A stretch of 64,000 bases of DNA, taken from contig JABGYD010000026.1 in assembly GCA_018675425.1 (NCBI GenBank), positions 1 through 64,000 on the forward strand, given 5' to 3'. The notes below the pieces were generated by a model. The model did not search any database. It was not told the DNA's origin and worked only from the letters and a program-made list of their open reading frames with translations. Positions 22,790-47,179 of the stretch are shown here, piece after piece; positions within the stretch are counted from its first letter, which is position 1, and each line of letters begins with the position of its first letter. Source of the DNA: Kordiimonadaceae bacterium (GTDB taxonomy: Bacteria > Pseudomonadota > Alphaproteobacteria > Sphingomonadales > Emcibacteraceae). The translations under genes were made by a program, and so were the position numbers.

Positions 22790-24334
22790 ATGTCGGCAAA
22801 ACCATCCTATTATATTACCACTCCTATTTATTATGTGAATGATATCCCTCATATAGGGCACGCCTACACGACCCTTGCATGCGACGTTCTTGCCCGTTTT
22901 AAACGCCTCGATGGGTTTGAAGTATTATTTTTGACTGGAACAGATGAACACGGACAGAAAGTTGAAAAGTCAGCTGCGGCAGCCGGAAAAACACCAAAAG
23001 AGTTTTGTGATATAGTTAGTCAGCGCTTTCGGGATCTTGCTGAAGTTATGAAATTTTCTAACGATGATTTCATTCGCACAACTGAGGATCGGCATAAGAG
23101 GGCTTGCCAGGCACTTTGGAACAAACTTTTGGATAATGGTCACATTTATCTTGATAAGTACGCTGGATGGTATTCTGTGCGTGATGAGGCATTCTTTGGT
23201 GAAAATGAGCTTGTTGAGAATAAAGAAAATATAAAAGTGGCCCCTACAGGAGCTCCTGTTGAATGGGTTGAAGAAGAAAGTTATTTTTTTAAACTTAGTA
23301 ATTTTGAAGAGAAACTTCTTTCTTTTTATGAAAATTTACCTGCTACTGTGCTTCCTAACACGAGAAAGAATGAAGTGAAGAGCTTTGTTGAGGGTGGCCT
23401 AAGGGATTTATCAATTTCGAGAACTAGTTTTAATTGGGGTGTACCTGTGCCTGACAACGATAAACATATTATGTATGTTTGGATTGATGCACTAACAAAC
23501 TACATCACAGCTGCAGGCTACCCTGATGTTGGAAGTGAAAAATTTAAAAATTTCTGGCCTGCAGATATCCATATGGTAGGCAAGGATATATTGCGTTTTC
23601 ATGCAGTTTATTGGCCCGCATTCTTAATGGGTGCAGGCCTTGAACCTTCTAATCGAATTTTTGCGCATGGGTGGTGGACTAGTGATGGTCAAAAAATTTC
23701 AAAATCACTTGGGAACGTTATAGATCCTTTTGGTTTAGTGGATGAATTTGGATTAGATCAAGTACGGTATTTTCTAATGAGAGAAGTTTCTTTTGGTAAA
23801 GATGGTGATTTTAATCGTCAATCGATGATAAATCGTATTAATAGTGACCTTGCGAATGATTTGGGCAACCTAGCACAACGCTCACTTAGCATGATTTATA
23901 AGAATTGTGATGGTGCCATACCATGTCCTGATGCACTATCCCTAGATGATAAAACACTACTTGATATGGTTGATTGCTTACTGGTTTATGTGCGAGACTG
24001 TATTGACAAACAAGCCATTAATAAATATCTAGAATTAATCTGGAAGGTAGTATCCGCAGCTAATATTTATTTTACGGCTCAAGAACCTTGGGCTTTAAAG
24101 GTGACAGACCCAGCTCGGATGGCTACAGTACTTTATGTTACTGCAGAAGCTATTCGTCAAATTTCTATTTTATCACAACCAATCATGCCAGATAGTGCGG
24201 CTAAATTATTAAATACTCTTAATATTCCGATAAATGAACGAGGTTTTGAATATTTGGGTGGTGTGCATAGGATTACCAGTAAAAATTCTATAGAAAAACC
24301 ACAAGGTGTTTTTCCAAGGTTTATTGAAACATGA
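22790..24334 (+). CDS. metG: Methionine--tRNA ligase
   Basis: YYITTPIYYVNDIPHIGHAYTTLACDVLARF (HIGH); DGQKISKSLGNVIDP (KMSKS-type). Confidence 0.96.
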   Translation: MSAKPSYYITTPIYYVNDIPHIGHAYTTLACDVLARFKRLDGFEVLFLTGTDEHGQKVEKSAAAAGKTPKEFCDIVSQRFRDLAEVMKFSNDDFIRTTEDRHKRACQALWNKLLDNGHIYLDKYAGWYSVRDEAFFGENELVENKENIKVAPTGAPVEWVEEESYFFKLSNFEEKLLSFYENLPATVLPNTRKNEVKSFVEGGLRDLSISRTSFNWGVPVPDNDKHIMYVWIDALTNYITAAGYPDVGSEKFKNFWPADIHMVGKDILRFHAVYWPAFLMGAGLEPSNRIFAHGWWTSDGQKISKSLGNVIDPFGLVDEFGLDQVRYFLMREVSFGKDGDFNRQSMINRINSDLANDLGNLAQRSLSMIYKNCDGAIPCPDALSLDDKTLLDMVDCLLVYVRDCIDKQAINKYLELIWKVVSAANIYFTAQEPWALKVTDPARMATVLYVTAEAIRQISILSQPIMPDSAAKLLNTLNIPINERGFEYLGGVHRITSKNSIEKPQGVFPRFIET

Positions 24335-25125
24335 CTTTTATTGTTGACAGCCATTGCCATTTAAATTATGGCGATTTAGCAACCGATTTAGATGGCGTAC
24401 TTAATCGTGCTGCTGAAGCTGGTGTTGGAACCATGTTAGCTATTAATGCTAGACTTTCTGAATTTAATGATGTGTTAAGTATAGCCCAATCAAATGATAA
24501 AATTTGGTGTACTGTAGGCAGTCACCCACATGACGCTGTGGATGAGTGGGGTATTTCAGCGGACCAATTAATTAAGCTAGCAAGCCATAAAAAGGTGGTT
24601 GGTATTGGTGAAACCGGTTTAGATTATTTTTATGAACATTCCCCACGGGATAAGCAAAAGGATAATTTCATCGCACACATAGAAGCAAGTCGCGAAACAG
24701 GATTACCATTGATTGTCCATGCTCGCGATGCGGATGATGACTGTGCAAAAATAATGGAACAAGAAATGGCAAAGGGTGAATACCCAGCTGTAATACATTG
24801 TTTTACTGCTTCCGAAGCGTTTGCGAGGCGGAGTCTAGATATTGGTTGTTATATATCGCTTTCAGGTATTGTTACTTTTAAGTCAGCTAAAGTACTTCAA
24901 GAAACAATAAAAATCATTCCACTTGAAAAGATGTTAATTGAAACCGATGCACCATTTTTATCTCCTGTTCCAATGAGGGGTAAATCTAATGAGCCCTCAT
25001 ACGTAAAGCACACTGCAGAGTTTCTTGCTCATCATTTCGAACTTGGTTACGAAGATTTTGCTAAAATAACTACAGATAATTTTTTTAAACTTTTTGATAA
25101 AACAGAAAGACCATCAAAAACATGA
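24331..25125 (+). CDS. TatD family hydrolase
   Basis: IVDSHCHLNY; VGIGETGLDYFYEHSPRDKQ; HCFTASEAFARRSLDIGCYISLSGIVTFK; IETDAPFLSPVPMRGKSNEP. Confidence 0.94.
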   Translation: MTFIVDSHCHLNYGDLATDLDGVLNRAAEAGVGTMLAINARLSEFNDVLSIAQSNDKIWCTVGSHPHDAVDEWGISADQLIKLASHKKVVGIGETGLDYFYEHSPRDKQKDNFIAHIEASRETGLPLIVHARDADDDCAKIMEQEMAKGEYPAVIHCFTASEAFARRSLDIGCYISLSGIVTFKSAKVLQETIKIIPLEKMLIETDAPFLSPVPMRGKSNEPSYVKHTAEFLAHHFELGYEDFAKITTDNFFKLFDKTERPSKT

Positions 25126-25898
25126 AAATTACTATTTTAGGGTGCGGCACATCACAAGGTGTTCCTAGGATTGGCGGTAAGCTAAATAATGGATGGGGAA
25201 ATTGCAATCCCAACGATACTAAAAATCATCGTCGTAGGGCATCTATTATGTTCGAACAGGGCGATACAAGGCTCGTTGTTGATACTGGACCAGATTTTCG
25301 AGAGCAGGCCCTTTCTGCTGGTTTTTCAAAACTTGATGCTGTTCTGTATACACATGACCATGCGGACCATACTCATGGTATTGATGATCTTCGTGCTATT
25401 GCCCAAAATATGAAGTCTGAAGTGCCAATTTATTCGAACAAACACACCATACGGGTCCTAGAAGAAAGGTTTAACTATATTTTTAAAAATAAACCTGGAT
25501 ACAATGCAATTTGCAGTTCAAATATAATTGGACTTAATCCATTTACGATTGGTAACTTTAAAAATATCCAGGCTATAGAACTAATTCATGGAAATATATT
25601 TTCTTATGGCTTTCGATTTAATGATATTTGTTATTGTACTGACTTTAATAATATCCCAAAAGAGTCCTATCAACATTTATATAACTTAGACCTTTGGATA
25701 GTTGACTGTCTTCGTGAAGATCCACATCCAACACATTCACATCTGGAACAAACACTACTTTATATTGAAGAATTTAAACCTAAAAGAGCTATTCTTACAC
25801 ATATGACTGCCGAACTAGATTACGAAACATTAAAAAAGCATTTGCCAAATGGGGTTGAACCCGCCTATGACGGCATGATATTAAATTATCAGGGTTAA
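25122..25898 (+). CDS. MBL-fold metallo-hydrolase (PhnP-like phosphodiesterase)
   Basis: ILGCGTSQGVPRIGG; YTHDHADHTHGIDDLR; YCTDFNNIP; AILTHMTAELDY. Confidence 0.9.
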   Translation: MKITILGCGTSQGVPRIGGKLNNGWGNCNPNDTKNHRRRASIMFEQGDTRLVVDTGPDFREQALSAGFSKLDAVLYTHDHADHTHGIDDLRAIAQNMKSEVPIYSNKHTIRVLEERFNYIFKNKPGYNAICSSNIIGLNPFTIGNFKNIQAIELIHGNIFSYGFRFNDICYCTDFNNIPKESYQHLYNLDLWIVDCLREDPHPTHSHLEQTLLYIEEFKPKRAILTHMTAELDYETLKKHLPNGVEPAYDGMILNYQG

Positions 25899-44467: not shown

Positions 44468-46306
44468 CTAAGGATGAAAATAATCATAAATTTGTGTTGC
44501 AAGAGAATTTGAAATACCCTTTACTTTATTAAGATCTGTAATCCCTGCATCAGAAACAGCTTTGGCTGAACCAAAATATAAAAGTAAATGTTTTTTTCGA
44601 ACTAAACCTACACTTGGTAAATCATCAAGCAATGATTTGTGCATATTTTTAGCTCTCCTACTCCTATGAGAACCAATAACAAACCTATGCGATTCGTCTC
44701 TCAACCTCTGCAAAAAATAGAGTACAGGGTCATTGGGCTGGAGCTTAAAAGGTTTTTTATCAACCATATAAAAATCTTCACGCCCCGCATTTCTGTCCTT
44801 TCCTTTAGCTATACAAACTACTGGAATTTCGTTTAACCCAAGATCCTCAAGTGCTCCGAGTACAGCTGATAACTGACCTTTACCGCCATCTATAAGTAGA
44901 AGGTCAGGCCAGTTAGGTCCGTCCCTATCAGGATCTTCACGAAGTTGTCGCTTAAAACGGCGGGTCAGAACCTCGCGCATCATACCAAAATCATCCCCAG
45001 GAGAAAGGTCCTTAGATTTAATATTAAATTTTCTATATGATGCTTTTTCAAATCCATCAACGCCAGAAACAATCATTGCACCTAAGGCACTAGTTCCTGA
45101 AATATGGCTATTATCATAAACTTCAATGCGGGAAGGGGTTGCATCAAGCCCAAAAAGTAGCGCAATCCCTTCTAGTAATTTAACTTGAGAAGAGGTTTCT
45201 GCAATTCTTCTATCAAGAGCATCCCGAGCATTTTTTTCAACAGTTTGAATAAGTGAGAGACTTGCGCCACGTTGTGGCATGGTAACTGTCACTTTACTCT
45301 CAGCTTTTAAAGTTAATGCTTCTTCGAGGAGTTTTTTTTGCTTTATAGAACTATTTATGAAAATATTTTTAGGCAGTGGTTTATTATCATAAAATTGAGA
45401 AATAAACGCTGATAATACCTCATCTACATGCTGATCTTTATCATGACGTGGAAAGTAGGCTTTATTTCCCCAGTTCTGGCCTGACCGGTAAAAGAAAACT
45501 TGCACACAAGTTTGTCCACCCTTCTTAAAGGCAGCTATTAAATCCGCAGAAATAAGTTTTTCATTTGTGTGGTCTTGGCGACTTTGAACAGTAGCTAGTG
45601 CCTTTAATCTATCTCGGTATACCGCTGCCAATTCATATATTTTTTTATCACTGGCTTCTTCCATTTTTTTAGTAAAACCAACTTTAATAGTTTCACTTTT
45701 TCCACTAAGGAAGTCGTGTGCCTCCTCAACAAGTAAATTATAATCAGTATCTGATATTTTACCTACGCAGGGAGCGGAACATCTTTTTATCTGGTAAAGA
45801 AGGCAAGGCCTACTTCTACTTTCAAATACACTATCTGAACAGGTGCGTAGAGAAAAAGCCTTCTGAAGAGTGTTCAATGAAATATTTACAGCGCTTGCAG
45901 ATGCAAATGGTCCAAAATAATAACCATCTTTTTTTTTGGCACCACGATGTTTAAGTACCCGCGGGGTTTTATGTGTCTTATCAATGAGTATATAAGGGAA
46001 AGATTTATCATCTCTTAATAAAATGTTGTAATGAGGTTTATACCGTTTAATTAAGTTAGCTTCGAGAAGGAGCGCTTCTACCTCCGTGTGTGTGGTAATA
46101 AACTCCATTGACCTTGTAAGCATAACCATCTTAGCTATTCGGACCGATAGTCCCCGAAGGTTTGTATAGTTTTTAACTCGGTTTGAAAGGTTCTTGGCTT
46201 TACCTACATAGAGGACCTTTTCGTTTGCACAAATCATTCTATAAACACCTGGTTTCGTGCCAAGGTTTTTTAAGTATGATTTTATGATGTCAACGCCGTT
46301 TTCCAT
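44468..46306 (-). CDS. uvrC: Excinuclease ABC subunit C
   Basis: PGVYRMICANEKVLYVGKAKNLSNRVKNY GIY-YIG; YQIKRCSAPCVG; RIEVYDNSHISGT; LLIDGGKGQL; HhH C-terminus. Confidence 0.96.
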   Translation of the reverse strand: MENGVDIIKSYLKNLGTKPGVYRMICANEKVLYVGKAKNLSNRVKNYTNLRGLSVRIAKMVMLTRSMEFITTHTEVEALLLEANLIKRYKPHYNILLRDDKSFPYILIDKTHKTPRVLKHRGAKKKDGYYFGPFASASAVNISLNTLQKAFSLRTCSDSVFESRSRPCLLYQIKRCSAPCVGKISDTDYNLLVEEAHDFLSGKSETIKVGFTKKMEEASDKKIYELAAVYRDRLKALATVQSRQDHTNEKLISADLIAAFKKGGQTCVQVFFYRSGQNWGNKAYFPRHDKDQHVDEVLSAFISQFYDNKPLPKNIFINSSIKQKKLLEEALTLKAESKVTVTMPQRGASLSLIQTVEKNARDALDRRIAETSSQVKLLEGIALLFGLDATPSRIEVYDNSHISGTSALGAMIVSGVDGFEKASYRKFNIKSKDLSPGDDFGMMREVLTRRFKRQLREDPDRDGPNWPDLLLIDGGKGQLSAVLGALEDLGLNEIPVVCIAKGKDRNAGREDFYMVDKKPFKLQPNDPVLYFLQRLRDESHRFVIGSHRSRRAKNMHKSLLDDLPSVGLVRKKHLLLYFGSAKAVSDAGITDLNKVKGISNSLATQIYDYFHP

Positions 46307-46427
46307 ATAATTATTTTATATAGAATCTTATTGAAAAGTCTACGCCATTTTCTTTTAAAACTTTCAAATATTTTATTTAAATCAAAATATAATTACTAAA
46401 TATGTAGCAAATTCAATGGTTAATAAG

Positions 46428-46495
46428 ATACCCACAGATTCGCAAAAAACTTATCCACTTATTATGTTGATAAACTGGTGCATAACTTTTCCAAA
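46428..46495. other. Cluster of DnaA-box-like 9-mers in AT-rich intergenic DNA (candidate oriC/DnaA-binding locus)
   Basis: TTATCCACT 46451(+); TTATCAACA 46473-46465(-); TTATGCACC 46485-46477(-); TTTTCCAAA 46487(+), each 8/9 to TTWTNCACA; ATACCCACA 46428(+) 7/9. Confidence 0.4.
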
Positions 46496-46531
46496 GACTT
46501 AAAAGTTGGCAGAACCCTTAATGTTATAGCA

Positions 46532-46554
46532 AATTGCCTAAAATTTAGGCAATT
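46532..46554. repeat. Perfect 10-bp inverted repeat in the uvrC-folB gap
   Basis: AATTGCCTAA-aat-TTAGGCAATT. Confidence 0.6.
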
Positions 46555-46762
46555 CACGTAACTTATTGATATTATTATATTAATTCAATGTCAACCAAGA
46601 TTTAAAATAATTATTTAATTTAAATAGTTTCCTAGATTTAGTAAATTAAACAAAAGCCTATGCTGTTGACAACTTTAAAAAAAGAACAAAAAAGAACAAA
46701 AAAATATATGCTTATTTTTCAATGATTTAACTAAATTAGTAGGATCAGTAATAAATGATTTC

Positions 46763-47179
46763 CTAAACCCGGTGACGTTCAATCTCAACTCCAACACTTG
46801 TCGTGTTTTCTATTGCTTCAAGTTTCTCGATACGGACCCTAACTGAAACTATACGCTTATCAAGCATATTCAAATTTGCAATTTTTTCAGCAAGTGTCTC
46901 AACCAACTCAACATGTCCCAACTCTATGATATTTTTAATTCCAGTTACTACCTTTTCGTAGCACACAACATTCTGATATTTATCATTTAGAGGAACATCT
47001 TCTTCCCTAACACATAAGTCTATATTTACGCACATTTGTTGTTTATTAATTTTTTCATGATCATAAACACCAATGAAACCACTAATCATTAGGTCGCGCA
47101 CAAAGACATGTCTTACACCTCTTAACGCATCTGCATATTTAATAGATGAGATATTACTTTTAGGTACTGATGGAGACAT
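46763..47179 (-). CDS. folB: Dihydroneopterin aldolase family protein
   Basis: VFVRDLMISGFIGVYDHEKINKQQMCVNIDLCV; VCYEKVVTGIKNIIELGHVELVETLAEKIAN; VRVRIEKLEAIENTTSVGVEIER. Confidence 0.85.
   Translation of the reverse strand: MSPSVPKSNISSIKYADALRGVRHVFVRDLMISGFIGVYDHEKINKQQMCVNIDLCVREEDVPLNDKYQNVVCYEKVVTGIKNIIELGHVELVETLAEKIANLNMLDKRIVSVRVRIEKLEAIENTTSVGVEIERHRV

Follow-up and report, generated by a model that had tools for sequence, protein, structure and literature searches.

The closest described counterparts of the element reported here are the E. coli sites DARS1 and DARS2. Both have the same box spacing, with DnaA box I oriented opposite to boxes II and III, and in both ADP release is driven by head-to-head contact between ADP-DnaA molecules (PMC8682772; PMC5742627). 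The DARS1 core of strain MG1655, which lies in the bioD-uvrB intergenic region upstream of uvrB, reads TAATACACA-TGG-TTATCCACA-GGAAT-AGTGGATAA, and the DARS2 core reads TCTTACACC-ATG-TTATCCACA-GAAAG-CTGGGATAA. DARS-like sequences are present in many proteobacterial species (PMC10380432), and in Vibrio cholerae they occupy the same places (PMC6090056). A third E. coli site, datA, combines DnaA boxes with one IHF site, and its essential boxes all point in the same direction (PMC5742627). A search of the open literature returned no alphaproteobacterial DARS, uvrC linkage, IHF position or palindrome of the kind described below, although some of the cores may have been mentioned before; the open papers searched do not describe conversion of ADP-DnaA to ATP-DnaA in Alphaproteobacteria.

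We analyzed a 64-kb stretch of DNA (the window) from an alphaproteobacterial assembly of 94 contigs and 2.2 Mb. Its longest gap is the 456-bp spacer between uvrC and folB (46307–46762), as the preliminary description had stated; an apparent gap at 62.7–63.7 kb is occupied by a gene that runs past the window edge. The other features first reported for the spacer were also recovered: an extreme AT-richness (A+T ∼77%), four matches to TTWTNCACA with at most one mismatch each (46451 and 46487 on the plus strand, 46465 and 46477 on the minus strand), 7/9 matches at 46428 and 46664 (−), and an inverted repeat, TGCCTAAAATTTAGGCA, at 46535–46551. Compared across the window, the spacer holds the densest DnaA-box cluster; when its sequence was modeled as a first-order Markov null, four boxes of no more than one mismatch fell within 50 bp in 0.2% of trials. 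The window and 28 relatives from the same genus, family, and order have the spacer in synteny, at lengths of 437–520 bp; its conserved blocks are non-genic. What the preliminary description overlooked is the fixed 3-bp/5-bp arrangement of the boxes at 46477, 46465, and 46451, the membership of the palindrome and an IHF site in the same element, and the class-wide conservation of the whole. The tandem GAACAAA-type repeat that it listed is indeed present, at 46679–46701, but is common to only a few congeners (L006, L009–L011) and lies outside the class-wide element.

Features of the uvrC/folB locus (window coordinates; model R1 is described in the text)
Feature	Coordinates	Strand	Remarks
uvrC	44468–46306	−	Downstream of element; Pfam UvrC RNase H, GIY-YIG, and UVR domains
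Presumed CtrA-type octamer, TTAACCAT	46416–46423	−	Between element and uvrC; family-level conservation only
Conserved DARS-like element (whole)	46446–46582	− (uvrC-sense)	Match to model R1
DnaA box I, TTATCCACT	46451–46459	+	Inverted relative to boxes II and III; AGTGGATAA on uvrC-sense strand
DnaA box II, TTATCAACA	46465–46473	−	5 bp from box I
DnaA box III, TTATGCACC	46477–46485	−	3 bp from box II, same direction
Palindrome, TGCCTAAAATTTAGGCA (TGCCTA-N5-TAGGCA)	46535–46551	.	Fits Fis consensus GnnYAnnnnnTRnnC
IHF-type site, TATCAATAAGTTA (WATCAANNNNTTR)	46559–46571	−	∼99 bp upstream of box II
Distal DnaA-box-like site, TTGTCAACA	46664–46672	−	Conserved block outside model R1
folB	46763–47179	−	Upstream of element; Pfam PF02152

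Read on the uvrC-sense strand, the core of the element is TTATGCACC-AGT-TTATCAACA-TAATA-AGTGGATAA, comprising three boxes with one mismatch each to TTWTNCACA. This 3-bp/5-bp geometry occurs once in the 64-kb window, counting both strands. The three-box core, the inversion of box I, and the DARS1/DARS2 spacing are all retained in relatives. Among these, box I is kept as GTGGATA on the minus strand and box II is TTATCCACA in nearly all cases, the host sequence TTATCAACA being one change away from the consensus, and box III has at most two mismatches to TTWTNCACA in 44 of 48 aligned relatives. The core has the same number of boxes as DARS1, with identical spacing and orientation, and in many relatives it differs from the DARS1 core by only a few bases (TTATCCACAGGAATAGTGGATA in DARS1 versus TTATCCACAGGAATCGTGGATA). 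Both cores also lie upstream of a uvr excision-repair gene, which is uvrB for DARS1 and uvrC here.

The remaining parts of the element flank the box III side of the core; their positions are counted on the uvrC-sense strand from the start of box II (0), which places box III at −12. Of all blocks in the alignment, the palindrome, ∼78 bp upstream of box II, carries the most information (23 bits), and it fits the Fis consensus in 44 of 48 diverse sequences. Farther out, the IHF-type site at −97 to −100 is exact in 18 of 48 relatives and has no more than one mismatch in 43, and the host genome encodes an IHF-alpha gene. In other genera, the distal DnaA-box-like site reads TTGTGCACA or TTGTACACA. 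An octamer of putative CtrA type lies between the element and uvrC; similar TTAA-type motifs recur within the family.

In its core geometry, accessory IHF site, and Fis-consensus site the element resembles DARS2. The IHF sites of DARS2 (IBS1-2), however, map beyond box I, at about +217, whereas the alphaproteobacterial IHF site is beyond box III and nearer to the core, at about −99; the neighboring genes are different, and the alphaproteobacterial palindrome varies much less, both in its sequence and in where it lies. Assignment to a DARS2 subtype was rejected on this arrangement, as both the IHF-type and the Fis-consensus sites fall on the box III side rather than at the DARS2 positions. Fis itself has been reported from gammaproteobacteria only (PMC4245941). 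Inspection of DARS1 found no conserved IHF site or palindrome at the alphaproteobacterial positions.

To follow the element through the class, we used a sequence-only model, R1, built from 48 alphaproteobacterial sequences; the window and its 93% relative were excluded, and other congeners were kept. The held-out window copy matches R1 with 68.5 bits (E = 5e-20) and is the sole match in its genome. At E ≤ 0.01, R1 matches 289 of 387 class genomes, usually 95–300 bp upstream of uvrC. All 30 of the best matches are at uvrC, as are 29 of 40 further sampled matches, which lie on the same strand and upstream. Although built from alphaproteobacterial sequences alone, R1 also finds E. coli DARS1 (E = 1.2e-8) and the DARS2 core (3e-4). 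The DARS2 intergenic region contains a second core of DARS geometry, TTCTTCACA-ACT-CTATCCACA-GAAAA-GGTGAATAA (L167:551-624), which outscores the DARS2 core with the alphaproteobacterial model (20.2 versus 17.9 bits).

A simpler, context-blind search with the 16-base core pattern TTATCCACA-N6-GTGGATA gave hits in 84 of 387 alphaproteobacterial genomes and in none with the reversed control (0/387); 24 of 30 loci fetched in this way lie on the same strand upstream of uvrC. Conversely, the core with no more than four mismatches is found at 74 of 133 uvrC loci, compared with 2 of 266 reversed controls. In a wider sample of the phylum, the core pattern occurs in 106 of 299 genomes (control, 0), including one locus (L300) that carries the E. 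coli DARS1 core at uvrB. Conservation across the class, with reversed controls near zero, excludes chance in AT-rich DNA, one of three explanations first entertained for the boxes, and strongly supports the proposal of a DnaA-binding locus.

The distribution is uneven. Named genomes that bear the element include Phaeospirillum, Frigidibacter, Rhodovulum, and Halovulum. In 12 of the 16 named genomes, R1 finds no match; most of these are Rhizobiales, and they include Rhizobium, Sinorhizobium, Agrobacterium, Ensifer, Mesorhizobium, Chelativorans, Aureimonas, Kaistia, and Pseudohoeflea. Parts of the class can therefore do without the element. Full-length, strong-scoring copies also occur away from uvrC (L233, L234, L245, L246, L258), next to a glutamyl-tRNA synthetase-like gene, xseA/cutA-like genes, and others; the element can therefore be relocated and is not merely a part of uvrC. 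Several genomes contain multiple matches (G100, with up to six, G154, G265, and G333), at least some of them off uvrC.

In the spacer between boxes II and I, the CcrM methylation site GANTC is present in 38 of 128 sequences, whereas column shuffles predict 17. The observed count was not attained in any of 2,000 shuffles, a comparison that leaves relatedness among the sequences uncontrolled. The window copy lacks GANTC in this spacer; copies that have it include L020–L022, L024–L026, L030–L033, L096, L156, L170, L171, L179, and L181–L183.

Judged from its sequence and conservation, the uvrC/folB spacer probably carries a DARS-type DnaA regulatory element that regenerates ATP-DnaA. Of the options raised in the preliminary description, a DnaA-titration site came nearest: the locus is a non-origin DnaA site, as that option implied, but titration of the datA kind does not fit, the box geometry being that of a reactivation site. 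Several points speak against the DARS reading: the IHF site is on the other side of the core from that of DARS2, Fis has been reported from gammaproteobacteria only, box II of the host departs from the consensus by one change, 12 of 16 named genomes lack a match, and the strong, orientation-specific linkage to uvrC exceeds the needs of a position-independent DARS.

That linkage bears on a different function, in which the boxes, IHF site, and palindrome would form a DnaA-controlled uvrC promoter that sets cell-cycle transcription without nucleotide exchange. The location of the element on the uvrC strand, 95–300 bp upstream of the gene in most genomes, favors this function, and in E. coli there is an overlap between DARS1 and the uvrBp3 promoter, with uvrB being repressed by DnaA (PMC6015884). 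However, the head-to-head DARS spacing is stricter than simple repression requires, and the full-length copies near genes other than uvrC fit a promoter of this gene poorly. We regard this explanation as unlikely, although it may coexist with a DARS. By analogy with the overlap of DARS1 and uvrBp3 and the repression of uvrB, a secondary role of the element in uvrC transcription is plausible.

A datA-like site, titrating DnaA or stimulating ATP hydrolysis with IHF, would likewise combine DnaA boxes with a single IHF site away from oriC, as datA does (PMC5742627). In datA, however, the essential boxes are unidirectional and arranged head-to-tail, whereas here boxes I and II are head-to-head, and nearly every sequence keeps box I inverted at the DARS spacing. 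We therefore hold little expectation of a datA-like function.

Within Emcibacteraceae, the inverted repeat formed by boxes II and I is followed by a T run in 10 of the 12 sequences of alignment A1, and the family alignment taken alone shows a 5′ hairpin, a C-rich stretch, and then this inverted repeat with its T run, as would a small RNA ending in a terminator. Outside the family, however, the T run is present in only 5 of 36 sequences, pair changes and covariation are no higher than in shuffled controls, and Rfam searches matched no family, which makes a small RNA highly improbable.

The preliminary description had also proposed a chromosomal origin at the spacer. GC skew, sampled from stretches of the genomes, instead identifies the hemE locus as the origin of the host genome, and the spacer is not an origin. 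On the host's own hemE contig (C30), the skew is negative up to ∼26 kb and mostly positive beyond, so that its sign changes at hemE (24,278–25,288; switch at ∼25–26 kb); parS sites lie at 16.6 and 18.6 kb, and a DnaA-box cluster lies upstream of hemE. In the complete genome of a congener (G013), the skew switches at hemE (3,289 kb) and between 1.60 and 1.68 Mb, and the uvrC/folB spacer, at 1,583 kb, is about 20–100 kb from the skew terminus. In a further family member (G016), the skew is negative on both sides of the spacer and so does not switch there. Like the alphaproteobacterial hemE origin, the element has DnaA boxes and AT-rich DNA; it differs in lying on another contig, with neither a GC-skew minimum nor the hemE/parS neighborhood usual for the class, and R1 finds no match, at E up to 10, in 60 kb of sequence around hemE in the host or at hemE in G013 (hemE loci searched: L035, L037, L066–L068). 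The DnaA boxes, AT-rich stretch, IHF site, and CtrA-like octamer each resemble a component of an origin, but replication from the spacer has next to no chance of being correct, given that the skew switch, parS, and box cluster are all at hemE and that the spacer lies close to the terminus in G013 and at no switch in G016.

The element is intergenic and away from oriC, between oriC and ter. A terminus-specific element was considered and rejected: in G013 the spacer lies close to ter, and in another genome (G015) it is roughly opposite hemE, but in G016 it is on a chromosome arm, 0.39 of the genome from hemE.

From the arrangement of the parts in the proposed DARS, we infer binding of DnaA, IHF, and a palindrome factor, ADP release, and its timing. 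Boxes II and I would be occupied by ADP-DnaA in head-to-head orientation and box III by a third DnaA, giving a three-box assembly of the unstable type that releases ADP in E. coli. The resulting apo-DnaA would take up ATP and become competent for initiation at hemE. DNA bending by IHF, about 90 bp away, may regulate this assembly, and a protein on the TGCCTA-N5-TAGGCA palindrome may co-regulate it. More tentatively, and with the balance of our judgment leaning somewhat against it, much of Alphaproteobacteria might share one class-specific, uvrC-linked DnaA-reactivating module, in which the near-invariant palindrome would replace or mimic the gammaproteobacterial Fis site and GANTC, in many lineages, could couple reactivation to fork passage.

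If the DARS reading is true, the DARS system extends well beyond the relatives of E. coli, DARS cores precede excision-repair genes in two classes (uvrB in one and uvrC in the other), and a palindrome-binding replication factor is implied. Alphaproteobacteria include major cell-cycle models, and a single conserved element with fixed parts would make the recharging of ADP-DnaA directly testable in the class.
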